DNA of 47,535 bases, from NCBI RefSeq assembly GCF_001590835.1, contig NZ_LTAQ01000015.1, positions 15,731 to 63,265 on the forward strand, read 5' to 3'. Position numbers and translations under genes: made by a program. Every line of letters starts with the position of its first letter. The first letter of the stretch is position 1. Below are positions 20,635 through 47,535 of the stretch, one piece after another. The DNA comes from Bacillus gaemokensis. GTDB taxonomy: Bacteria > Bacillota > Bacilli > Bacillales > Bacillaceae_G. The notes below the pieces were generated by a model. The model was not told where the DNA came from and ran no database searches. It worked only from the letters and a program-made list of their open reading frames with translations.

Positions 20635-20654
20635 TTTCTGGTACAAGTTTTCTA

Positions 20655-30555: not shown

Positions 30556-30569
30556 ACTCTGCTTTTTTT
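30527..30569. terminator. Bidirectional terminator overlapping the small membrane gene's 3' end
   Basis: AAAGCAGAGTT (30527-30537) pairs with AACTCTGCTTT (30555-30565), followed by T7 on the plus strand and A-rich sequence on the other side. It also serves the convergent permease gene. Confidence 0.8.
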
Positions 30570-31714: not shown

Positions 31715-31725
31715 TGCTTCTCCCC

Positions 31726-32922: not shown

Positions 32923-32937
32923 AAATTCCTAACCTCC

Positions 32938-33870: not shown

Positions 33871-33960
33871 GTCGATTCAGCCCCTTTGCATTAATCTATA
33901 ATTTCATTGTAAAAAAACATCCTCTTTCTTCCATCACTCTTGAGATAGAAATGCAAAATA

Positions 33961-33987
33961 AAAAAGCAGCACAATCTGCTGCTTTTT
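33961..33987. terminator. Terminator between the two-component genes and the ABC genes
   Basis: AAAAAGCAGCA and TGCTGCTTTTT make an 11-bp stem with a 5-nt loop. Confidence 0.88.
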
Positions 33988-34008
33988 CTCATTTCTCTAT
34001 GTCAAAAG

Positions 34009-34671: not shown

Positions 34672-35861
34672 ATCGTTCCTCCTATTACCCACGTCTTTTC
34701 CTTAAGTGGGAACTCAATCTTTAATCGGAATCCCTTCTCTTTTTCACTCTCAAATCGAATCATTCCACCATGTTCCTCTACACGTTCTTTCATATTCATT
34801 AATCCAAAACCAGGACTTATTTCATTTGTACCAATACCATCATCCGAAATTGATAATATAACTTTTTCATCCAAACATAATAATCTAACTTTACATAGAC
34901 TAGCTTTACCATGACGTTTTGCATTCGTTAATGACTCTTGCATAATACGCAATAAGGTAGGTTGTAATGACAGTGGAACAATAATTGGATCTCCTTGTAA
35001 ATGAAAGGTTATTTGTACTTTCGTTACCTTTGAAAATTCGCCTAGCATTCCCCTCATATCCTCTACTATATTTCCTAAACTTTGTTCCTCTTTCAATGTA
35101 CGAACCGATGCTCTTACCTCTTGAAGAGATTTTCTAGCTAGTTCATGACATGTATGTAAAACCTCTTCTGTGACTTCTGAGTTTTGCTTCCATAACGCTT
35201 CAGCAAGCTGTAATTGAACAAGTAAAGCCGTCATATTATGACCAACTGTGTCATGAATTTCTCGGGCAATATCATTTCTCTCCCGAATTGAAGTTAATTC
35301 TTCCACTTCTTTCGCATAAAGCTGTAACTGTTTATGTGCTTCTTTTAGGGCCGTATGTGATAATGTCAATTTTTCATATTGATCATCTACAGTCTGGCGA
35401 GCGACTGTAAGGTTTTTAATTAATTTTCCGGCTAGAGAACTAAAAACAACGAACATAAAATTAATCGCATTTTCCCAAATCCTTATCTCTCCAATGTACC
35501 AATACGTATATAGTAAAATAGCAAACCAGCATAAAAAGAAAAAACTCACAAAAAAATATACGACTATTTTCCGCTGTGCATGAATAAATAGTCCTATTGC
35601 ATCGATCCCAAATATAATTAAATATAAAGATGTCTCTGGAAATAAGAAACCTAATAGAGCTGTAATGACCCCATTTGAAAGTAATAAATATAAATTACGC
35701 CACTTCCCATGATGGGGTTGTATAAGTAGAATATGATTTACAATGTACATAAAAAATGAAAAACCAACAAAGATTTGTAACTCTACTGTTTCACGTGAAA
35801 CATAAGTCATATATATAACACAAATAATAACAATCGTCATGATACGTGCATATCCTAACAT
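34668..35861 (-). CDS. Membrane sensor histidine kinase, LnrJ-like
   Basis: The 397-residue kinase has about five to six N-terminal helices with very short loops, a coiled linker, a HisKA_3 domain with H203 in AREIHDTVGHNMTALL, and a HATPase domain with SDDGIG. Such intramembrane-sensing kinases detect membrane-active compounds. It is the first gene of the module. A GAGGG ribosome site precedes ATG. Confidence 0.83.
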   Translation of the reverse strand: MLGYARIMTIVIICVIYMTYVSRETVELQIFVGFSFFMYIVNHILLIQPHHGKWRNLYLLLSNGVITALLGFLFPETSLYLIIFGIDAIGLFIHAQRKIVVYFFVSFFFLCWFAILLYTYWYIGEIRIWENAINFMFVVFSSLAGKLIKNLTVARQTVDDQYEKLTLSHTALKEAHKQLQLYAKEVEELTSIRERNDIAREIHDTVGHNMTALLVQLQLAEALWKQNSEVTEEVLHTCHELARKSLQEVRASVRTLKEEQSLGNIVEDMRGMLGEFSKVTKVQITFHLQGDPIIVPLSLQPTLLRIMQESLTNAKRHGKASLCKVRLLCLDEKVILSISDDGIGTNEISPGFGLMNMKERVEEHGGMIRFESEKEKGFRLKIEFPLKEKTWVIGGTI

Positions 35862-35980: not shown

Positions 35981-36027
35981 AAAAAACAAGTCACTCTCAC
36001 ATATTCTGAGAGGATGACTTGTTTTTT
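35981..36027. terminator. Bidirectional terminator after the ABC-F gene
   Basis: AAAAAACAAGTCA pairs with TGACTTGTTTTTT, with an inner CTCTCA/TGAGAG stem. A strong two-part hairpin. Confidence 0.85.
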
Positions 36028-36030
36028 CAT

Positions 36031-37911
36031 CTATTCCATCATACTATCTAACCGGTTATATAATTCCGCTCGTAATAGTTCTTTCTTTGCTTTTTCTTCA
36101 TATAATTTTTCCAGTTTTTCAACATCGATCGTGTCTCCCATTGTACACTCCAGCGTATATATATCTTCTTCTATATGCATAAGCTTATTCTCAATTTCTT
36201 CTACGCCACTAGACTCTGGTTTCTTTACATGCGTTACTTTCACACTTGTAACTTCTTGTTGCTTTTGTTTCTCTACTTGCTTTTCTATTCTTTCTTCCCA
36301 CTTTGTTCGAGCCCATGCATAATTTCCTGCAAACTCAAATAATTTATGTTCATCAATCCAATATGTCTTTTCAAACAACTTATTTAAAAAATAACGATCG
36401 TGTGAAACAGCAAGAATTGTCCCATTATATTGTTCGAGGGCTTCTTCCAGCACTTCCCTTGATTCAATATCAAGGTGGTTTGTAGGCTCATCTAACACAA
36501 GAAAGTTTACATCTTGATACATAAGCTGTGCCAAGCGTAACCTCATCCGCTCTCCCCCGCTAAGTTGATTCACTTTCTTAAAAACAGCTGGACCATAAAA
36601 TAAGAAGCGAGCTAATATGTGACGAGCTTCTCCTTCTGTTACAGCTACGTATTCTCTGAAAGCTTCCAATACATTGTATTTTACATTCCCATATGCATGC
36701 TGTGATAAATAACCAATTTTCACACTACTACCAATTCGAATTTCACCCGCGTCCGGTTTCATTTCCTGTAATAACAATTTTAATAATGTTGTTTTTCCAG
36801 TACCGTTACGGCCAACAATAGCTGTGCGCTCTTGAAAACGAACATGCAAATTTGCCCCCTGGAATAAAGAACGATTAGCAAATGTTTTGCCAACTTCTTT
36901 CATTACAACAACATCTTTTCCACTTCTCTCTTGCCCTTCAAACTGAAGTCCCATCTGTTTTCTTTCTAACATTGGCTTTTTTAACTTCTCCATCCGTTCT
37001 AACGCACGCTCCATATTTCTCGCCCGTTTATGCAGTCCTTCATTCGGCGGATTCGCTTGATTCGCCCATTCTCTTAGACGTTTAATCGCTTCTTTCATTT
37101 TCTTTATTTTCTTTTGTTGTTCTTGATAAGATTGAAACTCTTGGAGCAATCTTTCTTCTTTCTCTTTCACAAACTGCGAGTAGTTCGTATGATATATATG
37201 AAGTTCTCCGTCCTCTAAATCAAAAATTTTCGTCACAACTTCATCCAGAAAATAGCGGTCATGCGAAATAACAACAACTGTTCCTGCGTATTCTTTTAAA
37301 AATTGCTCAAGCCATTCTACTGCAAATAAATCTAAATGGTTTGTTGGTTCATCTAACAGCAATAAATCTGGTCTCTGCAACAGCATATAGGCGAGACTCA
37401 CCTTCGTCTGTTCTCCACCGCTCAACTCAGTAAAAATCCGAGAAAATAGCTCTGTTACTTGTAAACCGTTTGCTACCTTCATTATATTTGCCTCTATTTC
37501 ATAACCACCCAAAAACGCAAATTGCTCTTGTACTGCACCATACTTCTCCATTAACCGCTCTAAACCAGTCGGATCTTTTTCCTCTGCCATACTTTGTTCT
37601 AAATTACGCATTTGTTTTTCTAATTCTTTTTCTTTTATAAAGGCAGAACTCAATACACCATATACATTCGTTTCATCATCAAACTTTGGAATTTGTGCAA
37701 CATGACCAATGCGTGTACCTTTCTTCATATGAATAGCTCCACGATCTATACTCTCTATTCCTGTTAACAATTGAAAAATCGTTGTCTTCCCACTACCATT
37801 TCGGCCAACTAATCCAATACGTTCACCATTCTTTATTTCAATCGATATATTTTCAAATATGATGTTTCCACCAAAAGATTTCGTTACATTGTTTACACTA
37901 CAAATTGTCAT
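36031..37911 (-). CDS. ABC-F family ATPase, probable antibiotic-resistance or ribosome-protection type
   Basis: The 626-residue protein has two ABC domains and no membrane segment: Walker A GLVGRNGSGKTT and AIVGRNGTGKTT, signatures LSGGEQTKV and LSGGERMRL, DEPTNHLD twice, and a charged linker and C-terminal coiled region. ABC-F proteins act on the ribosome. The start ATG at 37911 is 8 nt after AAGGAG; 27 more in-frame codons upstream overlap a terminator hairpin and are excluded. Its leader carries a small ORF and two terminators, as is usual for drug-induced ABC-F genes. I cannot assign it to a named subfamily. Confidence 0.85.
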   Translation of the reverse strand: MTICSVNNVTKSFGGNIIFENISIEIKNGERIGLVGRNGSGKTTIFQLLTGIESIDRGAIHMKKGTRIGHVAQIPKFDDETNVYGVLSSAFIKEKELEKQMRNLEQSMAEEKDPTGLERLMEKYGAVQEQFAFLGGYEIEANIMKVANGLQVTELFSRIFTELSGGEQTKVSLAYMLLQRPDLLLLDEPTNHLDLFAVEWLEQFLKEYAGTVVVISHDRYFLDEVVTKIFDLEDGELHIYHTNYSQFVKEKEERLLQEFQSYQEQQKKIKKMKEAIKRLREWANQANPPNEGLHKRARNMERALERMEKLKKPMLERKQMGLQFEGQERSGKDVVVMKEVGKTFANRSLFQGANLHVRFQERTAIVGRNGTGKTTLLKLLLQEMKPDAGEIRIGSSVKIGYLSQHAYGNVKYNVLEAFREYVAVTEGEARHILARFLFYGPAVFKKVNQLSGGERMRLRLAQLMYQDVNFLVLDEPTNHLDIESREVLEEALEQYNGTILAVSHDRYFLNKLFEKTYWIDEHKLFEFAGNYAWARTKWEERIEKQVEKQKQQEVTSVKVTHVKKPESSGVEEIENKLMHIEEDIYTLECTMGDTIDVEKLEKLYEEKAKKELLRAELYNRLDSMME

Positions 37912-37932
37912 TTTCCGTACTCCTTTCAACGT

Positions 37933-37973
37933 AAAAAAACCATAGGGAAAGAAACTTTCCCCATGGTTTTTTG
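37933..37973 (-). terminator. Attenuator hairpin directly before the ABC-F gene
   Basis: On the minus strand AAAAAACCATGGGGAAAG pairs with CTTTCCCTATGGTTTTTTT around TTT, with one G-U pair. It is a textbook intrinsic terminator ending 22 nt before the start codon. Confidence 0.85.
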
Positions 37974-37980
37974 CATAGAA

Positions 37981-38005
37981 AAAGGAAGCCAAATAGCTCC
38001 CTTTT
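37981..38005 (-). terminator. Second terminator-like hairpin in the ABC-F leader
   Basis: On the minus strand AAAAGGGAGC and GCTTCCTTTTT pair around TATTTG, followed by T5. It lies between the leader ORF stop and the main attenuator. Confidence 0.7.
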
Positions 38006-38036
38006 CACACGTTTTATAAAATGGGTGAAGAGATTT

Positions 38037-38171
38037 CTATCGTTCATTAACTGCTATGTGATTGTTAAAAAAGGGCATACGTATCCCGTTAACAATCACA
38101 TCATGAAAAATCGCACGACAAAAATAGATAAAATCTAAAAATTTTGCGCGCGCAGCTAAAGAACATTTCAT
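38037..38171 (-). CDS. 44-residue leader peptide of the ABC-F gene
   Basis: The ORF begins MKCSLAARAKFLDFIYFCRA and ends HIAVNER. AAAGGAGTGAATGAG gives it a strong ribosome site. An 11-bp inverted repeat (GTGATTGTTAA/TTAACAATCAC) lies within its coding sequence, and two terminators follow its stop. The likely role is cis regulation: a drug-stalled ribosome on the ORF would change leader folding and allow read-through into the ABC-F gene. The peptide itself has no family I know. Confidence 0.65.
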   Translation of the reverse strand: MKCSLAARAKFLDFIYFCRAIFHDVIVNGIRMPFFNNHIAVNER

Positions 38172-38213
38172 CTCATTCACTCCTTTCGTACGAAATTTTA
38201 TACTTACTTCTTT

Positions 38214-38219
38214 ATTATA
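38214..38219 (-). promoter_or_regulatory. -10 element of the ABC-F leader transcript
   Basis: A perfect TATAAT lies 42 bp upstream of the leader ORF. The -35 region at 17 bp (TATTCA) is poor. A perfect 12-bp palindrome TTTCGTACGAAA (38184-38195) follows in the leader. Confidence 0.5.
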
Positions 38220-38299
38220 CTTCTCCATTCCATGTTTGAATAGTCATTTTTCTGAAAATAATGAAGATAGACTAAACATTTCAACAAATTACATCTAAT

Positions 38300-38364
38300 C
38301 TTACAAAACTGTTATGTTCTCGTAATGAAAAGCGATAGTACGAAATAACTCCTCCTTATACAAT
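38300..38364 (+). promoter_or_regulatory. 65-bp micropeptide-regulon promoter (copy 1)
   Basis: It holds CTTACAAAACTGTTAT (38300-38315), a 20-bp gap containing CGTAAT and GCGA, TAGTAC (38336-38341), 17 bp, and TACAAT (38359-38364). The spacing is identical to five other promoters in the window. The palindrome's right arm is the most degenerate of the set. It drives the three micropeptide genes from 38405. Confidence 0.75.
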
Positions 38365-38404
38365 AAAGATGTAAACAAGAGATAAATAAAAGGAGGAACT
38401 ACTC

Positions 38405-38485
38405 ATGATGAAAGAAATCGCAAAAGCAATCTTCGAGGTGTTAGTGAACGGACAAGCAGTTGTAAAAAAACTAAACCAATTATAA
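38405..38485 (+). CDS. 26-residue amphipathic micropeptide
   Basis: The ORF encodes MMKEIAKAIFEVLVNGQAVV then KKLNQL. GGAGG lies 8 nt before ATG. Hydrophobic residues recur every three to four positions, fitting an amphipathic helix. It shares the pattern [IL][FL]x[AV]L[IV][DN]x[KQ]xVxxxLN with the peptides at 38502 and 44049. It is the first gene of a three-gene operon. No known function. Confidence 0.7.
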   Translation: MMKEIAKAIFEVLVNGQAVVKKLNQL

Positions 38486-38501
38486 AAAGGAGTGATAAAA
38501 C

Positions 38502-38579
38502 ATGATGAATATGGTAAAAATGATTCTCCACGCCTTAATTGACGCAAAAGCAGTTAGCCAAGAGTTAAATCAACAATAA
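38502..38579 (+). CDS. 25-residue amphipathic micropeptide
   Basis: It encodes MMNMVKMILHALIDAKAVSQ then ELNQQ. AAAAGGAGTGATAAAAC gives a good ribosome site 16 bp after the previous stop. It aligns without gaps to the shared micropeptide pattern and also begins MM. It is predicted to be a short amphipathic helix without a signal peptide. Confidence 0.7.
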   Translation: MMNMVKMILHALIDAKAVSQELNQQ

Positions 38580-38595
38580 AAAGGGGAAATTGAAT

Positions 38596-38724
38596 ATGAA
38601 GAAAGCCATTATTGCAATTGTAAGTACATTATTTGCCTTACATGCATTGAAGAATAGAAAAAAGAAACAGAAAGAACAAGCGGATACTCTGTATTATCCA
38701 TACACATTATTAAAGAAAAAATAA
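38596..38724 (+). CDS. 42-residue membrane micropeptide with a basic tail
   Basis: One N-terminal hydrophobic segment (about residues 4-18, AIIAIVSTLFALHAL) is followed by a highly basic region KNRKKKQKEQ and a tyrosine-rich tail ending in KKK. AAGGGG precedes the ATG. It is the third gene of the operon and its stop overlaps the terminator. It likely sits in the membrane with the tail in the cytoplasm. Unknown family. Confidence 0.65.
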   Translation: MKKAIIAIVSTLFALHALKNRKKKQKEQADTLYYPYTLLKKK

Positions 38725-38772
38725 AAGACAAGATACCCTTCTACAATTAGGATATCTTGTCTTTTGTTTTTT
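38723..38772 (+). terminator. Terminator of the three-micropeptide operon
   Basis: AAAAGACAAGATA pairs with TATCTTGTCTTTT (13 bp), with an inner CC/GG pair, then a T-rich run. Confidence 0.88.
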
Positions 38773-38889
38773 GATTAGTAATTGCTATCTTATTTCTCCT
38801 CACCCACCTCACGATAGAGGATTTCCCTTTCCTTTTCACGAATATAGTAAACGGGAATTTCACACATATTTTCAAAGGGGCATATACAT

Positions 38890-39666
38890 ATGGATACACA
38901 ACAACTTTATTTTTTAAATGATATTAGCAAGCAAAAACCCGAAAGCATCCGTAATAAAAATACAGCTTGTCCTTTTTGTGATACGGAACACCTCACTGAT
39001 ATTTTAGAAACAGAAGACTCTATTATCTGGTTGAAAAATAAATTTCCAACATTAAAAGATACGTTCCAAACCGTTCTCATCGAAACAAATAATTGCGATG
39101 ATCATATTGCAACCTATACACCTGAACATATGAAGAAATTAATTCACTTCTCCGTTAAACATTGGCTAGCTTTAGAAAATAGTAATCAATTCGAATCCGT
39201 TATTTTATATAAAAATCACGGTCCATTTTCAGGCGGGAGTTTGCATCATGCGCATATGCAGATTATCGGGATGAAATATGTAGACTATCGAGAAAATGTA
39301 ACACCCGAACACTTCCGAGGCATAATTGTACAAAAAGACGAACAAATTGAACTTAATATTTCTACACATCCAATTATCGGCTTTACTGAATTTAATATTG
39401 TCATTGAAAATATAAAATCCATCGATATGATAGCAAATTATATTCAACAAACTGTGCGTTACATACTAACGGATTTTCATAAAGGATGTAGTAGCTATAA
39501 TTTATTCTTCTATCATCTCGATGGAAAGATCATTTGTAAAGTCGTCCCACGTTTTGTTGTTTCACCATTATATGTCGGATATAAAATCCCTCAAGTTTCT
39601 ACAAAGTTGGAAGATGTGAAACAGCAGCTCCAACAATATTTTACAAAGAAAGATGAATATAGATGA
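38890..39666 (+). CDS. DUF4931-like protein with HIT/GalT-type motif
   Basis: The 258-residue protein carries C27xxC30 near the N-terminus and an H119-H120-A-H122-M-Q124 motif resembling the HxHxQ active site of galactose-1-phosphate uridylyltransferase and HIT-fold enzymes. I recall such Bacillus proteins as DUF4931. A nucleotidyl transfer or hydrolysis role is inferred from the motif only. CAAAGGGG precedes ATG. It overlaps the following acetyltransferase gene by 4 bp, implying a shared task. Confidence 0.75.
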   Translation: MDTQQLYFLNDISKQKPESIRNKNTACPFCDTEHLTDILETEDSIIWLKNKFPTLKDTFQTVLIETNNCDDHIATYTPEHMKKLIHFSVKHWLALENSNQFESVILYKNHGPFSGGSLHHAHMQIIGMKYVDYRENVTPEHFRGIIVQKDEQIELNISTHPIIGFTEFNIVIENIKSIDMIANYIQQTVRYILTDFHKGCSSYNLFFYHLDGKIICKVVPRFVVSPLYVGYKIPQVSTKLEDVKQQLQQYFTKKDEYR

Positions 39667-40133
39667 ATTATATAATACGAAAAGCTACTCTAGACGACAT
39701 CCAAGCACTCATTCATTTGCGTGTTTCCTTACTAAAAGAAGTAGATGAATTGCATTCACAAGAAGAAGAAAGTGCTTTTAGACATGCGACAGAACAGTAT
39801 TTGCAAGTAGAAATGACAAAAGGAATATTTACAGCTTATATAGCCCTAATAAATGGTGAAGTTATTAGCATAAGCGGTGTTACTTTCTTCCATCGACCGT
39901 CTTATATTAATAATTTAGAAGGAAAAGAAGCGTATATTCTAAATATGTATACACTCCCAGAATACCGCGGAAATGGTTTAGCAAAAAAATTATTACAGCA
40001 CTGCATAAAAGAATGTAAGGAAAACGGAGTAAAACGAATATGGCTTCATTCTTCTAAAGATGGTGAATTACTATATAAAAAAATGGGATTTACTCATAAA
40101 ACAAATGAAATGGAACTTTTTATAGAAAAATAG
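39663..40133 (+). CDS. GNAT family N-acetyltransferase
   Basis: The 156-residue protein begins IIRKATLDDIQALIHLR and contains the acetyl-CoA loop LPEYRGNGLAKKLL and a C-terminal LYKKMGFTHKTNEMEL, all classic GNAT features. The substrate is unknown. Its ATG overlaps the stop of the upstream gene (ATGA), so translation is coupled. Confidence 0.88.
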   Translation: MNYIIRKATLDDIQALIHLRVSLLKEVDELHSQEEESAFRHATEQYLQVEMTKGIFTAYIALINGEVISISGVTFFHRPSYINNLEGKEAYILNMYTLPEYRGNGLAKKLLQHCIKECKENGVKRIWLHSSKDGELLYKKMGFTHKTNEMELFIEK

Positions 40134-40160
40134 AGTAGGTGCTCCTAGCACCTACTCTTT
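40132..40160. terminator. Bidirectional terminator between the GNAT and transglycosylase genes
   Basis: AGAGTAGGTGC and GCACCTACTCT form an 11-bp stem with a 5-nt loop, overlapping the ends of both convergent genes. Confidence 0.8.
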
Positions 40161-40685
40161 CACTATGCCTATATTTCTATAGAATACGTTCTCTAATCCA
40201 ACGTTATACTTCATATTATTATCCGTCCACTCAGGGCCTAGATTACCCGGCCATCCAGATGTATTTGCTATATATTTTAGTAATGCAAAATCAGTCAAAC
40301 CTTTTTGCATGCCTCTTTTATACCCTTTCAGTAAATGCGGCATAGCAATTTGAGCATTTGTACGTGGATCCTTTAATTGATCATCTGTTAAATGATCTGG
40401 AGCAAGTCCACCACCGCGATGTAATTGAAATAGTCCAAATGAAGTGCCATTATCTCCAATACTTCTTGGATTCAAACGACTTTCATGCTCGGCAATTGTA
40501 AGAGGTATCCATTCTGGAAGATTCACTTTCTTGGCTTCTTCTATAATAATTTGTTTCATCTGTTTCGCTTCTTCTGAATCAACATAGCCTGTCTGTTTTA
40601 CTGCTCTTTCCATTCCTTCAGACTCACCTTGGAAATATAAATACATTCCAAGAATAACTAAAAATCCTACAAAGAATTTTTTCAC
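40152..40685 (-). CDS. SLT-family lytic transglycosylase
   Basis: The 177-residue protein has an N-terminal hydrophobic segment (residues 4-18) that anchors or exports it, then a goose-lysozyme/SLT domain with the catalytic Glu in AEHESRLNP (E68) and the motif GTSFGLFQLH. It should cleave glycan strands of peptidoglycan outside the membrane. It is short and single-domain, with no LysM or SH3 wall-binding part. Monocistronic. Confidence 0.85.
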   Translation of the reverse strand: MKKFFVGFLVILGMYLYFQGESEGMERAVKQTGYVDSEEAKQMKQIIIEEAKKVNLPEWIPLTIAEHESRLNPRSIGDNGTSFGLFQLHRGGGLAPDHLTDDQLKDPRTNAQIAMPHLLKGYKRGMQKGLTDFALLKYIANTSGWPGNLGPEWTDNNMKYNVGLENVFYRNIGIVKE

Positions 40686-40873
40686 TACTTCTACCTCTTT
40701 CTCTGCTGAAATTTGTCCCCTTTCAGCCTTTCCTTACAACCACTCGCATTCTATCGTTTTCTATTACTCTTAAATCATATCAAACTAGTACACACCTTTG
40801 CATCATGCTTAAGACTGATTTTGTGAAAAACATGTATTAACACTTTATCAAAAATGTAATATTTCTTCTCCAA

Positions 40874-40937
40874 TTCACACATATGTAATTTTTACCAGAC
40901 ATCATTCCGCATAGATTCCATTCTCTTTGTATATAAT
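40874..40937 (+). promoter_or_regulatory. Degenerate relative of the 65-bp promoter, before the DUF2334 gene
   Basis: TTCACACATATGTAAT keeps TNACA-N4-TGTAA, and TATAAT stands at 40932-40937. The ATAG element is displaced by 2 bp and the GTAA half-site is missing. It may be a weak member or a coincidence. Confidence 0.3.
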
Positions 40938-40977
40938 TGTAGATTGAACCCTATATACAGAATAGGAGATTGCCTAC

Positions 40978-42627
40978 ATGAAAAGAAAGTTATTGTTCTT
41001 TCTCACCATTTTACTATTCATCCCTATCCATACCTCTGCTCAAACAACCAAAAAGCCAAAAGTACTGATTTTATGTAGCACAGAAAACGAACAAGTTACC
41101 AATGAAATTCAAATTTTAAATAATCTAATTGGACATTTTACAAATGATGTGACAATACAACATGCTAGGAACACAAAGGAGATTACTCCTTCATCATCTT
41201 TTACACATATTATTTACATAGGAGAGAAAAAAGAGAGCCTTTCTAACGAAACAAAACATTTTCTAGAAAACTATTCAGGGCCTTTACTCTTTCTTGGTCA
41301 AAATGTAGAACAGCTACCAAATCGTTTTTCTTTTATTACCCACCAAGGAGACCAAATACGAATTCATGCAATACAATATCCAAATCGCAAGCTAAAAAAC
41401 GATTTTAATGAAGATCGATTAATCCAAAAGATTGAGACAACCGGGGAATCCCTAGCATATGCGATGAGTTCCGATCATACGTATCCATTTATCGTAAAGC
41501 AAAATAACTCTTATTACGTAGCAACATCACAGCTTTTTGATTGGCCTTCCCATTATGTTGGTGAAATGCTCTTCTCCTTCTTTGAGCAGCAACCTGAAAC
41601 AAAAAAAAGCCGTGCTTATATACGCTTAGAGGATATTCATCCAGCTTCAAATTCAAAACAACTACAGGAAATTGCCGAATTATTAAAAAAGAGAAATATC
41701 CCCTATATGGTAGCTGTTATTCCTGTCTATACAGACCCGAGTACAAAAAAAACGATACACTTAGTAGATAAACCTGAGTTAGTAAATGTGCTACGATTTA
41801 TGCAAACGAATGGCGGTTCGATTGTGATGCATGGTTATACCCACCAATTTTATGATAGTGAAACGGGAGAAGGCTTTGAATTTTGGGATATAAAAACGGA
41901 TCAACCAATTCGTCAACCAAAACATGAGCAATCAAAAACAAAAGCGGATTTTAAATCTACCGAAGCTTATAACCAATACGTAAAAAACGGTAAAGATTTT
42001 GAAGAAACATATATAAAAGATCATATCGAAGACGGAATTAAGGAACTTGTGGATGCTAAATTATACCCACTCGCTTTTGAAGCACCTCATTATGCGATGT
42101 CCCAAAAAGGTTATGAAATACTATCCCATTACTTCTCAACCTATGTTGGGCAATTACAATTAAGCGATTCAACATGGAAAACAATGCACACAACTGCCTT
42201 TACTAGCAAACCTTCGTTTTTACATGGGATGAAAGTATTTCCTGAAACAGTTGGATTTATAGAAGCAAATCAACCTCATGCTGCTTCTGAAATAAAGGAA
42301 CGTTCATTATCATTTTCAAAGTTATCAGATGGCATAATCGGTGCCTTCTATCATCCATACTTAGGAGTGAAACCTTTCAAAGAATTATTAAATGAATTGG
42401 AAAGCGTTCCAAACATAGAATGGATTGATTTACAGAAAGAAAAAAATAACGTAAAAACGAACGATATCATCATTCATTCTAATAAAGATGGCATTCATAC
42501 TGAAGAGCCATTGTCTGTAAATAATACGATTAATTATCTTAAGAAGTACGGATTCTTCCTCATCTTTGGAATTATCCTAATCATTTTCTTGTTATTAATA
42601 CGACGTGCAAAACGACTTGAATCATGA
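40978..42627 (+). CDS. DUF2334 polysaccharide-deacetylase-like membrane-anchored protein
   Basis: The 549-residue protein has a signal peptide (residues 1-21), a first domain to about 210, then a deacetylase-like DUF2334 domain beginning SRAYIRLEDIHPAS, with MVAVIPVY, VMHGYTHQ and FEAPHYAMS supplying the usual Asp/His set. One C-terminal helix (about 522-541) is followed by basic residues, so the catalytic part would face outward. It may modify cell-surface polysaccharide. AATAGGAGATT is its ribosome site. Confidence 0.82.
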   Translation: MKRKLLFFLTILLFIPIHTSAQTTKKPKVLILCSTENEQVTNEIQILNNLIGHFTNDVTIQHARNTKEITPSSSFTHIIYIGEKKESLSNETKHFLENYSGPLLFLGQNVEQLPNRFSFITHQGDQIRIHAIQYPNRKLKNDFNEDRLIQKIETTGESLAYAMSSDHTYPFIVKQNNSYYVATSQLFDWPSHYVGEMLFSFFEQQPETKKSRAYIRLEDIHPASNSKQLQEIAELLKKRNIPYMVAVIPVYTDPSTKKTIHLVDKPELVNVLRFMQTNGGSIVMHGYTHQFYDSETGEGFEFWDIKTDQPIRQPKHEQSKTKADFKSTEAYNQYVKNGKDFEETYIKDHIEDGIKELVDAKLYPLAFEAPHYAMSQKGYEILSHYFSTYVGQLQLSDSTWKTMHTTAFTSKPSFLHGMKVFPETVGFIEANQPHAASEIKERSLSFSKLSDGIIGAFYHPYLGVKPFKELLNELESVPNIEWIDLQKEKNNVKTNDIIIHSNKDGIHTEEPLSVNNTINYLKKYGFFLIFGIILIIFLLLIRRAKRLES

Positions 42628-42664
42628 AAAAATGCCAAGCACAGATTTGCGCTTGGCATTTTTC
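42627..42664. terminator. Bidirectional terminator between the DUF2334 and TatD genes
   Basis: AAAAATGCCAAGC pairs with GCTTGGCATTTTT, a 13-bp stem with a 10-nt loop. Confidence 0.88.
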
Positions 42665-43463
42665 ACTTCAAGTCGAGGTATTTGCTCCTCTCTCTTTTCA
42701 AATAAAATTGAACCGTATTTTGATAAACAATTTCTGCAACTTTATCTATATGTACATCTTTAATACAACTAATTTCTTTTAATACGTCTTTAATCATATT
42801 CGGATGCGTCATGATACCCTTTTTGAATTCCCAGGGACCATCTGTTTCAACCATCATATATTCAAGCGGATAAAACGATACAATCTTTCTAATTTTTTCT
42901 TTCTGCATAATATCTGGTGTAATGGAAATATAGTAACCATTTCGAATCATGCGCTCCATCGTTTTCTTGCTTCCCTTAAACCAATGAAAATGTGCACGAG
43001 AAATCTCATGCTGCTCAAGTAAATCACATACAAGCTCAGCATCTTCATAGACTGCATGTAATACAATTGGTAAATCACACCTTTTCGCAAGAGATATGAA
43101 TTTTTTCAATACCTCCACATACGGCTCTAATGCGATATCTTTCTTTTCTTGCCGTAAATAGTATGGCAACCCAACCTCTCCAATAGCAACAAGCTGACTT
43201 GCATTTTCTTCAACTAGCTTATAAATTTGTTCACATTCTCTCTTGTTAATTGGCTGTTCTGGATGAAAACCAAGTGCTGGATGCACAAATGGATGCTGTT
43301 TTGCTAAAAATAATGTTTGTTGGCAAGAATGATAGTTCATTGATACTGCAATCATCCCTTCAATCCAAGTACTCCTTTTCACATCATCAAATAATTGCAT
43401 CTGTTCTTTATTCTTATATTGATCCAAATGTATGTGACTATCAATCCACTTCACATCTATCAT
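42663..43463 (-). CDS. TatD family metal-dependent hydrolase
   Basis: The 266-residue TIM-barrel protein has HIH near the N-terminus (IDSHIHLDQ), GEVGLPYY with the bridging Glu, VLHAV, HFHWFKG and VETDGPW, the full TatD metal set. Family members are DNases or related phosphoesterases; this branch is not well studied. The ATG at 43463 abuts GGGAG, so GTG at 43454 (9-nt spacing) may be the true start. Confidence 0.83.
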   Translation of the reverse strand: MIDVKWIDSHIHLDQYKNKEQMQLFDDVKRSTWIEGMIAVSMNYHSCQQTLFLAKQHPFVHPALGFHPEQPINKRECEQIYKLVEENASQLVAIGEVGLPYYLRQEKKDIALEPYVEVLKKFISLAKRCDLPIVLHAVYEDAELVCDLLEQHEISRAHFHWFKGSKKTMERMIRNGYYISITPDIMQKEKIRKIVSFYPLEYMMVETDGPWEFKKGIMTHPNMIKDVLKEISCIKDVHIDKVAEIVYQNTVQFYLKRERSKYLDLK

Positions 43464-43504
43464 CTCCCGTATCTATTTTAATACGACGTGCCAGACCAAG
43501 AACA

Positions 43505-43540
43505 ATAAAAAAACAAGAGGACAACTCCTTCTTGTTTTAT
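43505..43540 (-). terminator. Terminator of the 37-residue peptide gene
   Basis: On the minus strand AAAACAAGA and GGA pair with TCC and TCTTGTTTT through one bulged A, followed by T7. Confidence 0.75.
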
Positions 43541-43548
43541 CATCTATA

Positions 43549-43662
43549 TTATTTAACAATTAAGTTTGTAATTATATCAAACAATCCAATACATACCACG
43601 GCAACAGTAAAGTAGCTACAGAAATCTTTTATCGGAAACTTAACTACTTCTTCTTTTGGCAT
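43549..43662 (-). CDS. 37-residue single-helix membrane micropeptide with two cysteines
   Basis: The peptide begins MPKEEVVKFPIKDFCSYFTV and continues AVVCIGLFDIITNLIVK. A charged N-terminal third precedes one membrane segment (about residues 16-33). Cysteines at 15 and 22 flank its start. AAGGGAGAA is 7 nt before ATG, and promoter and terminator bracket it closely, giving a complete one-gene unit. No recognised family. Confidence 0.7.
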   Translation of the reverse strand: MPKEEVVKFPIKDFCSYFTVAVVCIGLFDIITNLIVK

Positions 43663-43710
43663 CCCATTCTTCTCCCTTCTCAATATCTCCCTAATATATT
43701 ATCTATTTTT

Positions 43711-43775
43711 ATTATGCAAAAAATATGAACAACGAGCTATCGAATTAGCTTACGTAAATCTTACAATATTGTAAG
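43711..43775 (-). promoter_or_regulatory. 65-bp micropeptide-regulon promoter (copy 2)
   Basis: On the minus strand: CTTACAATATTGTAAG (43760-43775, perfect palindrome), a 20-bp gap with CGTAAG and AATTCGA, TAGCTC (43734-43739), 17 bp, CATAAT (43711-43716). It drives the peptide at 43549-43662. Confidence 0.8.
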
Positions 43776-43779
43776 GTTT

Positions 43780-43885
43780 AAAAAAATAGCCTCATCTCAT
43801 ATAGAGATGAGGCCTATTGAATAGTTAGTTGGTTTTCAAACATTCATCATTATTTCAAACAGAAAGTTGTATGTTCAAACTTTCT
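43780..43885 (-). ncRNA. Candidate small RNA of about 105 nt
   Basis: A regulon-type promoter (43892-43956) predicts a start near 43885. A terminator GCCTCATCTC/GAGATGAGGC with T7 ends the transcript at about 43780. Near its 5' end AGAAAGTT/AACTTTCT forms an 8-bp hairpin. The only ATG start (ATGATGAATGTTTGA) codes for four residues, so the unit is probably non-coding or a decayed peptide gene. Existence of the RNA is inferred from its signals. Confidence 0.5.
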
Positions 43886-43891
43886 ACTTAT

Positions 43892-43956
43892 ATTGTAGTA
43901 GAATTCTTAAGTATCAACTATCGAATTACATTACACGTACCTTACAAAACTGTAAG
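43892..43956 (-). promoter_or_regulatory. 65-bp micropeptide-regulon promoter (copy 3, divergent)
   Basis: On the minus strand: palindrome CTTACAGTTTTGTAAG (43941-43956), 20-bp gap with TGTAAT and AATTCGA, TAGTTG (43915-43920), 17 bp, TACAAT (43892-43897). It shares its palindrome with copy 4 on the other strand. Confidence 0.75.
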
Positions 43957-44005
43957 CCTTCTGTAATATAATTCGATAGTTACTTTTACTTTTATTTCGT
44001 ACAAT
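43941..44005 (+). promoter_or_regulatory. 65-bp micropeptide-regulon promoter (copy 4, divergent)
   Basis: CTTACAAAACTGTAAG (43941-43956), 20-bp gap with TGTAAT and AATTCGA, TAGTTA (43977-43982), 17 bp, TACAAT (44000-44005), followed by TAAGTCAGAAAG as in copy 6. It drives the peptides at 44049 and 44119. Confidence 0.8.
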
Positions 44006-44048
44006 TAAGTCAGAAAGAGCAACAAACAAAATCGTAAACAGGGTGAAT

Positions 44049-44105
44049 ATGCTACTAGCTGCTCTAATCGATTTAAAAATGGTTGCTACTTCATTAAACG
44101 AGTAA
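44049..44105 (+). CDS. 18-residue amphipathic micropeptide
   Basis: It encodes MLLAALIDLKMVATSLNE. AGGG lies 5 nt before ATG. Despite its size, it matches the pattern LLxALIDxKxVxxxLN of the peptides at 38405 and 38502 without gaps, which argues that it is translated. It is followed after 13 bp by the next peptide gene. Confidence 0.6.
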   Translation: MLLAALIDLKMVATSLNE

Positions 44106-44118
44106 GGAGAGAGTAAAT

Positions 44119-44220
44119 ATGAACAACATCACTTTTAACAAATTAGACTTAATCGGACTTGCTAGCGGTGCCGCTCTTCTTACAGCTTTCATTTATGCTG
44201 CTGCGATGAGTCTCGTATAA
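44119..44220 (+). CDS. 33-residue hydrophobic peptide, paralogue of the four-gene array
   Basis: It begins MNNITFNKLDLIGLASGAAL and continues LTAFIYAAAMSLV. The K.DL.G.ASGAA.LTA core and the terminal LV match the array peptides at 20481-21140. AAGGAGAG is 7 nt upstream. Here it is cotranscribed with an amphipathic micropeptide under the regulon promoter, and a strong terminator follows. Confidence 0.72.
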   Translation: MNNITFNKLDLIGLASGAALLTAFIYAAAMSLV

Positions 44221-44252
44221 ACTTGTGTCCCCTTCCCCTTTATATAATAGAG

Positions 44253-44284
44253 AAAGCCCAACCTATGTAGGTTGGGCTTTCGTT
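44253..44284 (+). terminator. Terminator of the two-peptide operon
   Basis: AAAGCCCAACC and GGTTGGGCTTT form an 11-bp GC-rich stem with a 6-nt loop, then CGTTTT. Confidence 0.88.
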
Positions 44285-44323
44285 TTATGTAATTAAAATC
44301 CTACGAAATGTACATAGTAAACT

Positions 44324-44360
44324 AAAATCCGCTAACCTTTTAAAGATGCTAGCGGATTTT
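44324..44360 (-). terminator. Terminator after the YxeA-family gene
   Basis: AAAATCCGCTA and TAGCGGATTTT form an 11-bp stem with a 15-nt loop, about 30 bp beyond the stop. Confidence 0.75.
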
Positions 44361-44392
44361 ATAATTTATTATTATGCATGAATCAAGTAATT

Positions 44393-44764
44393 TTATCTCA
44401 TCGCCAAAAGCTTACTTCTCGCCTGCACAGGGATATTTTGAACCTCAATTTCTGCTAACGCCTCCCCGTAACGCCCTTTTGCAACGACTTTCAATGTCTC
44501 ATCTCTTTTTAACATATGCTTTACAGTTTTCTTTATGTTCTGTGCTCTACCTTTATCATCGTACGCAACAAATTCGTATTCATACCAATCATCGCCAACG
44601 TGCTGACCAATGCCATTCACGATTGTATAATATTCTTTCGTTTTATAAAACGGATTATATTTATCAATTACTGGGCCAAGCTTTGTTGGTAGCAGTAACA
44701 CAATGATAGCTACCAGCGCTACCCCAGTGAAAATTATTCTTTTTTTCACACTTCCCCACCTCAA
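44393..44764 (-). CDS. YxeA family (DUF1093) secreted or membrane-anchored protein
   Basis: The protein of about 123 residues has one N-terminal hydrophobic segment (KRIIFTGVALVAIIVLLL) and a small beta-rich domain with EYYTIVNG, DDWYEYEFVAYDDKGR, LKVVAKGRYG and a terminal VPVQARSKL-like QNIPVQARSKL, the usual YxeA layout. In B. subtilis yxeA follows yxdLM and is controlled by the YxdJK two-component system, which responds to peptide antibiotics such as LL-37. TTG at 44764 (after GGAGGAGG) or GTG at 44749 (after GGTGGGG) may be the start. Its promoter is regulon copy 5. Confidence 0.78.
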   Translation of the reverse strand: MRWGSVKKRIIFTGVALVAIIVLLLPTKLGPVIDKYNPFYKTKEYYTIVNGIGQHVGDDWYEYEFVAYDDKGRAQNIKKTVKHMLKRDETLKVVAKGRYGEALAEIEVQNIPVQARSKLLAMR

Positions 44765-44809
44765 GGCAGATTCCTCCTCCACACAATATGTGTAGTTTTC
44801 TATAGACTT

Positions 44810-44874
44810 ATTTTAACCAGTAAGGAGCAATTATTCTATTGAATTCTCTTACATTTCCCTTACATTTTTGTAAG
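44810..44874 (-). promoter_or_regulatory. 65-bp regulon promoter (copy 5), drives the YxeA-family gene
   Basis: On the minus strand: CTTACAAAAATGTAAG (44859-44874), 20-bp gap with TGTAAG and AATTCAA, TAGAAT (44833-44838), 17 bp, TAAAAT (44810-44815). Spacing is the same as in the micropeptide promoters. Confidence 0.8.
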
Positions 44875-44879
44875 AATAA

Positions 44880-44911
44880 AAAAAGATGAACGAATTCTCT
44901 CGTTCATCTTT
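44880..44911 (-). terminator. Terminator after the YitT-family gene
   Basis: AAAGATGAACGA and TCGTTCATCTTT form a 12-bp stem with a 6-nt loop, followed by a T run. It insulates regulon promoter copy 5. Confidence 0.85.
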
Positions 44912-45748
44912 CTAGCTTGCTTTAAAACCACCACCAAGTACATCACGTACATCGTGAATAACAACAAACGCATCTTCATCCACTTGACTAATGACTTGTT
45001 TTAATTTTACAAGCTCTTGTTTATTAATAACGACATACAATACTTCTTTATTTTTTCCAGTATATCCACCGCGCCCTTCTAATACAGTCACCCCGCGCGT
45101 CATATGTTTCGTAATCGTTTCACGAATTAAATCTGGTTGATTCGATATAATCGTAACCGCTGTTTTCGTATTAATTCCTTCCACAATGAAGTCAATTACT
45201 TTCGCTCCAATAAATACTGCCACAAGTGTATACATTGCCTTTTCCTGCCCGATTATAAACACAGAACCTGCAATTACAACAATATCAATAATAAGGACAC
45301 CTTTTCCAACACTCCAGCCTAAATATTGATTGGCTAATTGCGCTAAAATCGCTGATCCCCCTGATGTACCTCCCGCTCGGAACATACAACCTAATCCAAT
45401 ACCAACAAACACACCAGCAAACAGAGCTGCTAATAACGTATCGCTATTTACTCGATATCCAATATGCTCTGTAACATATAAAAACAAAGATGTTTCCACG
45501 ATTCCTAGGATTGTGTAAACGATCGTTTTTTTATCAAAAAATTTATAACCAATTGCTAATAAAACTGCATTAAAAGCAAAATTCAGAACCCCTGGTGACC
45601 ACCCAAACAAATAATAGGTAACAACCGTTAAACCAATTATTCCGCCTTCTGATAAGCGGTTTGGAATTGCAAAATAGTTAATACCAATTGCAAATAATAA
45701 TGAACCAATTGTAATTAATGTAATTTCTTTCATTCGTTGATTAACCAT
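44912..45748 (-). CDS. YitT family membrane protein (DUF161/DUF2179)
   Basis: The 278-residue protein has about five helices (residues 10-175), including GGTSGGSAILAQL, and a C-terminal DUF2179 cytoplasmic domain with TRGVTVLEGRGGYTGKNKEVLYVV. Bacilli carry several paralogues (YitT, YpjC, YqfU and others); function is unknown. A poorly placed GGGGGGAGG-type ribosome site precedes ATG. Confidence 0.87.
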   Translation of the reverse strand: MVNQRMKEITLITIGSLLFAIGINYFAIPNRLSEGGIIGLTVVTYYLFGWSPGVLNFAFNAVLLAIGYKFFDKKTIVYTILGIVETSLFLYVTEHIGYRVNSDTLLAALFAGVFVGIGLGCMFRAGGTSGGSAILAQLANQYLGWSVGKGVLIIDIVVIAGSVFIIGQEKAMYTLVAVFIGAKVIDFIVEGINTKTAVTIISNQPDLIRETITKHMTRGVTVLEGRGGYTGKNKEVLYVVINKQELVKLKQVISQVDEDAFVVIHDVRDVLGGGFKAS

Positions 45749-45865
45749 AGTTCATACCTCCCCCCATTTGACATTGTATCACTATCTCCTAGAGGTATAG
45801 AAGTGGTTTTTATTGCACTCTTTTTCTTTTAATAACCTTACTATTATGTTTAAACAAACGCTTGA

Positions 45866-46195
45866 TTAATTATTCATTTCTCTTTTAACAGCATAGACAA
45901 ACTGTTTTACATTTCCCCGCTCAATATACCTCCCTACCACGTTTTCTCCCCTATAAGTAAAACTCAAATGTGGAGATACACATACGTCTTCTATATACAA
46001 ATAAAAGTATTCTTCCCATTTCGCAGGGTAATACGGAAGTTTTCCATAGAACAGGATACGCCTATTCGTAGCAACAAATATACCATGTTGATATGACAAG
46101 AACATGTTATCCTTCTCAAATATTCCTATCACAAACGATAAAATTTGTTCATCAGGCTCTACATATTTTTTCACATTCCGTAATAGTTCATTCAT
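45866..46195 (-). CDS. Bacterial PH-domain-like protein
   Basis: The protein of about 109 residues reads as a beta-rich single domain: IFVATNRRILFYGKL resembles the core of bacterial PH (YdjM/YvbH-like) domains, and no membrane segment is visible. The ATG at 46195 is 7 nt after GGAGG; the ATG at 46201 is too close. A strong promoter with a LacI-type operator lies upstream, next to the ccpB-like gene. Function unknown. Confidence 0.65.
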   Translation of the reverse strand: MNELLRNVKKYVEPDEQILSFVIGIFEKDNMFLSYQHGIFVATNRRILFYGKLPYYPAKWEEYFYLYIEDVCVSPHLSFTYRGENVVGRYIERGNVKQFVYAVKREMNN

Positions 46196-46275
46196 GAACA
46201 TTCCTCCAAATTCTATTCATTGTCTTAGCACTTGAAAAGAATCCATGGATTATCACTTAACCGGTATAATTCATT

Positions 46276-46304
46276 TATAAAGTATGAAACGCGTTTCCTG
46301 TCAA
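46276..46304 (-). promoter_or_regulatory. Promoter with embedded LacI-type operator, before the PH-domain gene
   Basis: TTGACA (46299-46304) and TTTATA (46276-46281) are 17 bp apart. The spacer holds the perfect palindrome GAAACGCGTTTC (46286-46297) with the CG centre typical of LacI/GalR operators. A bound repressor would block RNA polymerase. Confidence 0.65.
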
Positions 46305-46313
46305 AAATATTTC

Positions 46314-46357
46314 AAAAAAAATAATCCGTTATGCGATATACACATAACGGATTATTT
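46314..46357 (-). terminator. Terminator after the ccpB-like gene
   Basis: ATAATCCGTTATG and CATAACGGATTAT form a 13-bp stem with a 9-nt loop, followed by T-rich sequence on the minus strand. Confidence 0.87.
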
Positions 46358-47335
46358 CTAAACAGTTGATCGTTCTACAAGTACATAAGGAATCTCGATT
46401 TTTTCTGGCTTCCAATTATCATTGTTTATTTGCTTGTAAAATAGTTTAAAAGCACTTTTACCAATTTCTTTTACATGTTGATCAATTGTTGTGATTTGTA
46501 ATACTTGTGAAATCGGCTGATTATCAAAACCAATAATCGCTAAATTCTCTGGAACATTTATACCTAATTTCTCAGCCTCTGTCATAATTCCAATAGCAAC
46601 TTCATCACCCGCTACTAGCAATGCCTCAGGAGGGTGCTCCATCTCTTTTAGCTTATGTGCAACTCTTACACCATCTTCTAATGTAAAACATTCCGTAAAA
46701 ATCCTATTTTCGACAATTTCTTCATCTATTAATTGTAAAGTCTGCTTATAGGCATCAAATCTCTTTTCACTACTGGCCCCACGCTTCCTTCCTGTGCAAT
46801 ACCCAATTTTCCTATACCCCTTCTCGATTAGGTAATTCATTCCTAATTGAAAAGCTTCAAAATGATTTATATATACGCTCGATATGTCCAAAGCAGTAGT
46901 CTCTTCACAAGCAATAATTGCCCCATACGAAGCATGATGCTTAATTACATCCCAATCATTTGAGCGTGAGCAAATAATGATCCCATCTAATTGCTTTGTT
47001 TTTAACATATGTAAACTTTCTATTTCTTCTCGCTTATTATAATTTGTCTGACAAAGAAGAACTCGATAATTATGAGCTAATGCACCTTCCATAATTCCTC
47101 CAACGATTGCATCGAAATGTGGGTGGTCAATATACGGCAAAATCACACCGACAATGTTCGTTTTTCCTTTGGATAAATGAACAGCATTCGCATTTTGCGA
47201 ATAATTCAATTTCTCAACAACCTCTAAAACTACTTGTCGTTTTTCTTCACTTACATATGGATGGTCATTTAAAACTCGTGAAACAGTTGTAACTGACACA
47301 CCGGCTAGCTTTGCAATATCTTTAATATTAGCCAT
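46358..47335 (-). CDS. ccpB: LacI family repressor, CcpB-like
   Basis: The 325-residue regulator starts MANIKDIAKLAGVSVTTVSR, a LacI helix-turn-helix with the hinge helix reaching about residue 57, followed by a periplasmic-binding-protein-like sensor core (VGVILPYIDHPHFDAIVGGI, SRSNDWD, GIIICSR, LLVAGDEVAIG). The HPYVSEEKR and NYNKREEIESL stretches resemble B. subtilis CcpB, which assists catabolite repression. It may act on the operator at 46286-46297 next door and, through a weaker TACACGCTTA-centred repeat near 47372, on itself. Confidence 0.8.
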   Translation of the reverse strand: MANIKDIAKLAGVSVTTVSRVLNDHPYVSEEKRQVVLEVVEKLNYSQNANAVHLSKGKTNIVGVILPYIDHPHFDAIVGGIMEGALAHNYRVLLCQTNYNKREEIESLHMLKTKQLDGIIICSRSNDWDVIKHHASYGAIIACEETTALDISSVYINHFEAFQLGMNYLIEKGYRKIGYCTGRKRGASSEKRFDAYKQTLQLIDEEIVENRIFTECFTLEDGVRVAHKLKEMEHPPEALLVAGDEVAIGIMTEAEKLGINVPENLAIIGFDNQPISQVLQITTIDQHVKEIGKSAFKLFYKQINNDNWKPEKIEIPYVLVERSTV

Positions 47336-47415
47336 ATGTTCACCTCTTCCCTTAACTTAATAAATTTCATAAGCGTGTATCAAATATTCTCATCATTACA
47401 TCTCCATATAGTTTC

Positions 47416-47480
47416 CTTACACAAGTGTAATTTTCCTGTAAGCTAATTCGATAGTGACTTCTCTCTACATTTCGTACAAT
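47416..47480 (+). promoter_or_regulatory. 65-bp micropeptide-regulon promoter (copy 6)
   Basis: CTTACACAAGTGTAAT (47416-47431), 20-bp gap with TGTAAG and AATTCGA, TAGTGA (47452-47457), 17 bp, TACAAT (47475-47480). From AATTCGATAG onward it is very close to copy 4. Confidence 0.8.
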
Positions 47481-47525
47481 TAAGTCAGAAAGTAACAACA
47501 ACCATTCGAAAAGGAGCGGATATAT

Positions 47526-47535
47526 ATGATGCACA
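47526..47535 (+). CDS. Micropeptide gene start (MMH...), cut by window edge
   Basis: ATGATGCACA follows AAAAGGAGCGGATATAT, a good ribosome site, and lies 45 bp after regulon promoter copy 6. It begins with MM like the peptides at 38405 and 38502. Only three codons are visible; the family is inferred from context. Confidence 0.55.

Follow-up and report, generated by a model that had tools for sequence, protein, structure and literature searches.

In the 47,535-nucleotide stretch of Bacillus gaemokensis contig NZ_LTAQ01000015.1 analysed here (hereafter the window), six promoters of 65 bp with almost the same layout stand between positions 38300 and 47480, in front of very small genes and one gene of the YxeA family, which raises the question of which regulator operates them and what response their products serve. 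According to our analysis, they are likely to be switched on by a Bce/Yxd-type response regulator of the OmpR family whose gene lies elsewhere in the genome, a reading to which we assign a probability of roughly 0.87. Bce/Yxd-type systems are a main means of sensing and resisting peptide antibiotics in Firmicutes, and they are usually described as a transporter together with its own regulator. The promoters are listed here with their scores on a matrix built from sites of other genomes.

38300 to 38364, plus strand: promoter 1, palindrome with two mismatches, GTAA, CGATAG, and −10 TACAAT; 36.0 bits
43711 to 43775, minus strand: promoter 2, for a peptide of 37 amino acids (aa); 47.6 bits
43892 to 43956, minus strand: promoter 3, sharing its palindrome with promoter 4; 47.0 bits
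43941 to 44005, plus strand: promoter 4; 48.0 bits
44810 to 44874, minus strand: promoter 5, for YxeA; 50.3 bits, the highest score
47416 to 47480, plus strand: promoter 6; 47.7 bits

All six had been claimed in an earlier, sequence-only reading, and a direct match to the pattern CTTACA-N4-TGTAAG-N20-TAG-N20-TANAAT (20 fixed bases) located each of them, with no mismatch in 43892(−), 43941(+), and 44810(−), one in 43711(−) and 47416(+), and two in 38300(+); the runner-up places in the window have five. The palindrome alone, with at most two mismatches, occurs 10 times in the whole window against 2.18 expected, and 0 of 100 shuffled sequences reached 10. The promoters are indeed six, but the palindromes number five, as 43892(−) and 43941(+) share one, each reading it on its own strand. 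It carries GTAA and AATTCGATAG on either flank, the two promoters diverge from it, and the bidirectional operator (43917-43980) is identical to its own reverse complement at 48 of 64 positions. As claimed, GTAA stands at a fixed place in 6/6 sites. The box CTTACA-N4-TGTAAG holds for five sites, the right arm at 38300 being TGTTAT; the AATTCGA that was said to be usual is AAAGCGA at 38300, and the TANAAT-like −10 is CATAAT at 43711. A plain sigma-70 consensus scan picks none of the six as a promoter, in keeping with a poor −35, and its count of promoter-like sites in the window does not exceed that in shuffles (35 versus 43.7). The leaders of promoters 4 and 6 are alike almost to the letter and have TTTCGTACAATTAAGTCAGAA in common.

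The assignment to a regulator type is carried by the genes that follow the same architecture elsewhere. In a first scan of the genome collection, a 22-base pattern taken from the window returned six loci, none of them, to judge by title, of the Bacillus cereus group; downstream lie a micropeptide and a response regulator (L001), a YxeA gene (L003), a BceA-type gene (L005), and, at L002, L004, and L006, other genes or genes without assignment. An 18-base pattern with up to two mismatches matched 13 places in these six genomes (reversed control, 0), and with up to one mismatch it matched 37 of 299 Bacillales genomes, which include G001 and G003 already picked by the first scan (reversed control, 2/299). 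The 44 places in the 299 genomes were assigned by BLAST of the longest open reading frame (ORF) starting within 300 bases: 30 are BceA-type, 4 YxeA, 1 BceB-type, and 1 the regulator of Bacillus sp. J37, while the remainder are Lipoprotein_22 (1), PAP2 (1), other (3, one of which, L065, drives a micropeptide), and none (3); one YxeA, the J37 regulator, and PAP2 are matches to their own reference. Since BceA-type, BceB-type, or YxeA genes or, in J37, a whole Yxd-type operon thus lie behind 36/44 places, the window sites are best described as putative Bce/Yxd-type response-regulator promoters, and the interpretation of the sequence-only reading is supported. A stricter, window-like pattern with up to three mismatches matched 19 of 80 genomes of J37's family (control, 1/80).

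On a matrix of 57 non-redundant sites from other genomes, the six window sites score 36 to 50 bits and the seventh place 2.5, while 7.8 is the highest score in 30 Markov sequences. The external sites had been picked with a window-derived pattern, so that the columns of this pattern are conserved by construction; the −10 lies outside it. The best −10 offset of the 57 sites is the same as in the window in 28 and one base longer in 23 (51/57), against about 15% expected from shuffled downstream bases. The rigid spacing claimed for the six sites was found in all of them, and it is thus general to this kind of promoter rather than special to the locus. The box likewise agrees with TNACA-N4-TGTAA, given in PMC9020739 (citing Dintner 2011) as the consensus for the response regulators of bceAB-type genes; this palindrome is present in 5/6 window sites, 38300 having TTACA-N4-TGTTA. 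Among the products, YxeA (promoter 44810) belongs to a target class of Bce-type modules, and those of the other five promoters are not known there. No BceAB genes with two-component genes were seen in the window, and therefore we regard the locus as a set of targets, not as a detoxification module with its own regulator and transporter.

The sites themselves fall into two kinds. When the third half-site was allowed to vary in part (G..A), near-identical sites were merged, and the sites of the exact scan were removed, 51 sites were left, among which the 36 BceA sites have GAAA in 30, GTAA in 4, and GTCA in 2. GTAA was found at 5/5 YxeA sites and at 12/14 non-BceAB sites together, versus the 4/36 of BceA (Fisher p 1.1e-6 for non-BceAB and 1.7e-4 for YxeA), in genome searches made with GTAA patterns that favour GTAA equally in all classes; with redundancy left in, the counts are 19/22 versus 5/48. 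In four genomes (G001, G003, G055, and G202), GAAA at BceA and GTAA at YxeA or micropeptide genes occur together, and therefore ancestry alone does not explain the split. According to these comparisons, the third half-site is the feature dividing predicted YxeA/micropeptide operators from BceAB operators, and the window sites are all GTAA; the rule is a directly testable means to tell YxeA and micropeptide targets from transporter targets.

The micropeptides recognized in the window are encoded by three ORFs.

38405 to 38485, plus strand: micropeptide of 26 aa, family member, ribosome-binding site (RBS) AAAAGGAGG; E 0.0017, first of 2243 frames
38502 to 38579, plus strand: micropeptide of 25 aa, family member, RBS AAAAAGGAG; E 0.0018, second of 2243 frames
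44049 to 44105, plus strand: micropeptide of 18 aa, the weakest member in the window, weak RBS AGGGTG; E 0.039, third of 2243 frames

These ranks come from a hidden Markov model (HMM) of seven external members searched against the 2243 frames of the window (next frame, E 0.42; reversed control, 0.54). Save for the J37 peptide, the external members came from profiles containing window peptides, and the match is therefore not fully independent. For the 26- and 25-aa peptides no Pfam or NCBIfam model was over its cut-off, and four of their relatives matched nothing in NCBIfam apart from a subthreshold CcmD (E 0.046); the 18-aa peptide is below the 20-residue minimum of the family search, which covered the longer two. 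As read from their sequences, the peptides at 38405, 38502, and 44049 form a new putative family without a Pfam or NCBIfam model.

The link between this family and a Bce-type module is most direct in Bacillus sp. J37 (L059), where the box is followed, in order, by a 30-aa ORF and genes for an OmpR-family regulator, a kinase, an ATPase, a permease, and YxeA, and where the 30-aa peptide resembles those of the 26-, 25-, and 18-aa window ORFs. Compared with solved structures, the kinase is nearest to BceS (E 1.3e-32), the ATPase to PsdA/BceA, and the permease to PsdB (3.9e-80) and then BceB, so that all three have BceS/BceA/BceB-type proteins as their nearest relatives, as in a Bce-type module. 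J37 YxeA was identified by TIGR01655; no NCBIfam model was over the cut-off for the ATPase among the best 25 of 191, and the permease had no NCBIfam match. In 80 genomes of J37's family, a profile of four peptides (J37 and the three of the window) gave, besides J37 itself, one strong match, in G447 (E 3.6e-6; next match, 0.0047), where a box and TATAAT at the window spacing were noticed only after the protein match. A five-row profile gave 29 matches in 28 of 397 genomes at E ≤ 0.05, 13 of which were judged members by eye; the match at L184, inside a long protein, was rejected, and the one at L185, which has a box, was accepted as genuine. With G447 and L065, the family counts 15 members, in 12 genomes besides J37. 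A box lies within 350 bp upstream of seven of the 15, namely J37, L065 (found by its box), G447, two in G280, G205, and G066, and thus of 5/13 members found by protein. The boxes of the two G280, the G205, and the G066 members score 21 to 23 of 27 positions, a level of at least 21 being reached by 38 of 1500 random stretches from a pool that held real sites. At G205 the micropeptide is followed by a Lipoprotein_22 gene; at G066 the genes that follow encode an FtsX permease, another regulator (Trans_reg_C), and, by eye, a kinase.

Judged from sequence, G280 resembles the window most closely; there the window-like pattern with up to three mismatches occurs at six places, with 0 control matches. 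Boxes driving micropeptides stand at three separate places (C1:287584, 2305610, and 2313377), and a site known from its box alone was found to drive a further member; two of the three G280 peptides were not part of the profile and yet are recognized by it, with E 5.6e-9 and 3.7e-5 against a small set. The remaining three boxes have no family member, and two of them overlap on opposite strands (G280:C1:2101935-2101985; L197/L202), reminiscent of the window operator 43917-43980. Across the seven external micropeptide boxes, the third half-site is GTAA in three (J37, G447, and G205), GTCA in three (G066 and two in G280), GTTA in one (G280), and GAAA in none.

The J37 operon and the half-site together point to a regulator of the YxdJ type rather than of the BceR or PsdR type. 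The J37 gene order is that of yxdJK-yxdLM-yxeA, the module order given for Bacillus subtilis in PMC3968067, with a micropeptide added, and YxeA is a target in the window too; the J37 regulator is also 67% identical to that of the yxd-like locus G118. At G118 the box (two mismatches) stands before the transporter genes and no micropeptide was noticed, whereas in J37 both precede the regulator. The promoters may instead be under a paralogue of the BceR/PsdR type, or common to several paralogues. We deem this rather unlikely, though it is the alternative that fares best, since the core box is common to all collected external sites, and since cross-regulation of Bce-type promoters has been published for L. 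paracasei (PMC10858260). G280, G205, and G066 count in the same direction, as they have micropeptides with boxes but only 57%, 58%, and 53% identical relatives of the J37 regulator, in a search made in genomes other than G447. What speaks for separate regulators is the coexistence of GAAA at BceA with GTAA at YxeA or micropeptide genes in G001, G003, G055, and G202, together with GTAA at 6/6 window sites.

If a Bce/Yxd-type regulator does operate the six promoters, the signal would most likely be a peptide acting on the envelope, which a BceAB/YxdLM-type transporter would detect together with its kinase; YxdJK of B. subtilis is described as induced by LL-37 (PMC5063857). Once phosphorylated, the regulator would occupy both the palindrome CTTACA-N4-TGTAAG and, 11 bp further, a third half-site, GTAA; AATTCGATAG runs into the −35 region, after which comes the −10 at a constant distance. 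The promoters would be of the sigma-A type with a weak −35, and the fixed distance from operator to −10 suggests that the bound regulator recruits RNA polymerase, the operator 43917-43980 presumably acting in both directions. The predicted output comprises YxeA, three micropeptides of the new family, a DUF3948 peptide, two other small proteins, and probably an RNA of about 100 nucleotides (nt). The micropeptides would most likely be small membrane-associated accessory proteins of the response.

Beyond this, we tentatively propose, at somewhat less than even odds for the whole of it, that the micropeptides (about 18 to 38 aa) are an overlooked component of Bce/Yxd-type responses in Bacillales. 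They would have a hydrophobic segment followed by a motif like V-L-[VI]-[DE]-G-x-x-V-A-x-x-L-N/G, be expressed with YxeA from operators with GTAA, GTCA, or GTTA but not GAAA, and exert their effect at the membrane, either on the sensor transporter or its kinase or on a cell-wall enzyme; in at least two lineages (the window organism and G280) they would have spread to form a dispersed regulon, here with DUF3948 and a small RNA. A literature search of partial coverage gave nothing combining micropeptide, BceAB, and histidine kinase, and nothing naming these micropeptides. As described in PMC7438565, YsaD, of the YxeA family, affects signalling by the Bce-like module YsaDCB/TCS-G of Lactococcus lactis, which makes an accessory role of small partners plausible, not proven. 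In that system, too, a BceR box is predicted at a distance from the transporter, ahead of dlt; the passages of PMC7438565 on it mention no micropeptides. With respect to the BceR/YxdJ-type promoters of Firmicutes in general, the window agrees in the palindrome, the position of the third half-site, the −10 distance, and a YxeA target, but differs in having no adjacent BceAB operon, in its targets (micropeptides, DUF3948, and probably an RNA), in one bidirectional operator, and in GTAA throughout instead of the GAAA usual at BceA. The locus suggests a second output of Bce/Yxd systems, made up of very small proteins that are dispersed and have no family models, with perhaps a regulatory RNA besides, and it indicates where a role might be sought for YxeA and DUF3948, two families with no assigned function. 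The predicted peptide family, the probable RNA, and the division of sites by half-site go beyond the sequence-only reading.

The other predicted products of the promoters, with one terminator, are as follows.

38596 to 38724, plus strand: ORF of 42 aa, third in the promoter 1 unit, with a hydrophobic N terminus and a basic tail
43549 to 43662, minus strand: 37-aa peptide behind promoter 2, with one hydrophobic stretch; start set by eye, RBS-like GGGAGAAG
43777 to 43885, minus strand: predicted noncoding RNA of about 100 nt from promoter 3, with a 5' hairpin and a terminator-like hairpin at 43788-43814
44119 to 44220, plus strand: DUF3948 protein of 33 aa (PF13134, 49.1 bits; gathering cut-off, 25)
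44252 to 44281, plus strand: terminator-like hairpin past the DUF3948 gene
44393 to 44749, minus strand: YxeA-family protein of about 118 aa; GTG start at 44749 set by eye from the RBS
47526 to 47535, plus strand: ORF starting Met-Met-His, cut by the window end; RBS AAAAGGAG, by eye

The YxeA-family target named in the sequence-only reading is confirmed by TIGR01655 (47.7 bits; cut-off, 29.65) and PF06486 (DUF1093, 42.8 bits). The 42- and 37-aa ORFs gave no family in the Pfam and NCBIfam searches, the DUF3948 protein had no NCBIfam match, and the ORF at 47526 is possibly another micropeptide. In the stretch behind promoter 3, the part before the hairpin holds eight closed ORFs of at most nine codons, none with an RBS, and the 109 nt fold at −28.6 kcal/mol (z −4.78) into the 5' and terminator-like hairpins. 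Therefore promoter 43892(−) probably makes an RNA of about 100 nt, as judged from this one sequence; Rfam gave no family at the gathering score and eight subthreshold matches only. Among the promoters for which micropeptides had been proposed as the main products, promoter 3 would thus be an exception, probably giving an RNA and not a peptide.

The same stretch bears on whether any of the short ORFs are functional proteins, since their transcripts might act as RNAs or the ORFs be leader peptides. The products are very short (18 to 42 aa), behind promoter 3 there is seemingly no ORF that could be used and the RNA fold is strong, and the J37 micropeptide sits ahead of its operon like a leader. 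However, the amino acid motif recurs across many genomes, an RBS-like sequence precedes all 14 external members except that of G156, and the G447 gene stands alone with its neighbour on the opposite strand, which together make this alternative improbable.

Several results weigh against a Bce/Yxd-type response as described here. Neither an OmpR-family regulator nor a Bce-type transporter was found in the window, where the only response regulator found is of the LuxR/GerE type; the selection of external sites by a window-derived pattern, mentioned above, counts here as well. Promoter 1, with the right arm of its palindrome broken, is a weak member of the set, as is the 18-aa peptide of the family. 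The amphipathicity of the micropeptides is no higher than that of shuffles, and an amphipathic-helix reading was rejected because the hydrophobic moments of 10/10 peptides were no better than shuffled at p 0.05 (lowest, 0.058). The G447 box has no TAG, and the window-like pattern gave only the control match in that genome. Eight of the 15 members, as judged by eye, have no box within 350 bp: those of G360 and G156 (L186:5977-6769 and L195:5521-6357), each a short way upstream of a transglycosylase gene (PF00912) and the G156 copy with an in-frame stop, and six of one NGKKVVYELN-like subfamily (L190-L194 and L196), four of which adjoin prfC (one confirmed, three by eye). Finally, G120 (L152:3700-4123) keeps a J37-like operon with a 90% identical regulator, although its micropeptide frame is degraded and its box gone, which argues against strict linkage.

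Two further explanations are hardly tenable. Promoters of an extracytoplasmic function (ECF) sigma factor would explain why AATTCGATAG and the −10 form two conserved blocks a fixed distance apart while the sigma-A −35 is poor, but they were rejected given the sigma-A-like −10 (TACAAT, TAAAAT), the recurrence of palindrome and third half-site upstream of BceA-type genes, and the published direct control of bceAB genes by response regulators (PMC9020739). Recent copying of one promoter segment without any regulon, which the nearly identical leaders of promoters 4 and 6 would fit, is contradicted for the set as a whole, since the remaining four promoters are unlike one another beyond the conserved columns and stand before unrelated genes and since the same architecture stands upstream of Bce-type genes in other genomes.

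Elsewhere in the window, genes at 30569-35861 (minus strand) encode a kinase, a LuxR-family regulator, an ABC ATPase, and two ABC-2 permeases (families GerE/HisKA_3 and ABC-2), which we take to resemble linearmycin-type systems. The GerE-type two-component system among them (34009-35861) was considered as the local regulator and rejected, its DNA-binding family being wrong for the box.

YxeA-family genes were also met outside chromosomes. A viral contig carries one at L007:425-793 (minus strand; TIGR01655, 59.2 bits) with phage-like genes nearby (by eye) and, upstream of it, an exact match to the 22-base pattern (L007:858-895, minus strand). YxeA-like genes occur in 14 Listeria, Paenibacillus, and Enterococcus phage records, and on plasmids YxeA appeared only as distant matches in six Enterococcus and Lactococcus records. 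Neither plasmids nor phages gave a DUF3948 match, and plasmids gave no DNA match to 43480-44400 (distant search) or 36000-47535 (near search).

DUF3948, a family whose function is not described and of which the 33-aa ORF at 44119 is a member, was found in 10 of 397 Bacillales genomes at E 0.01, one of them over the cut-off; close relatives of the source organism therefore seem absent among the genomes searched. At these ten external loci no box scored above 16 of 23, and DUF3948 is therefore not tied to the box there. The window holds, besides, a tandem array of four DUF3948 genes at 20481-21142 (minus strand; about 36 aa each, repeat unit of about 188 bp), three of which were tested and are over the Pfam cut-off and the fourth read by eye; it is not under a Bce-type box, and repeated TTACATTAATRTTAC palindromes, to which we assign no meaning, lie upstream of it at 21150-21440. 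The array, which resembles one that PMC10196113 describes in genomes of B. cereus and B. anthracis, and the gene content make the window look like DNA of the Bacillus cereus group. In that paper, five adjacent DUF3948 genes are reported as the top transcripts of a plasmid-cured B. cereus strain; as described there, the published array looks like the separate array at 20481-21142 rather than the gene under promoter 4.

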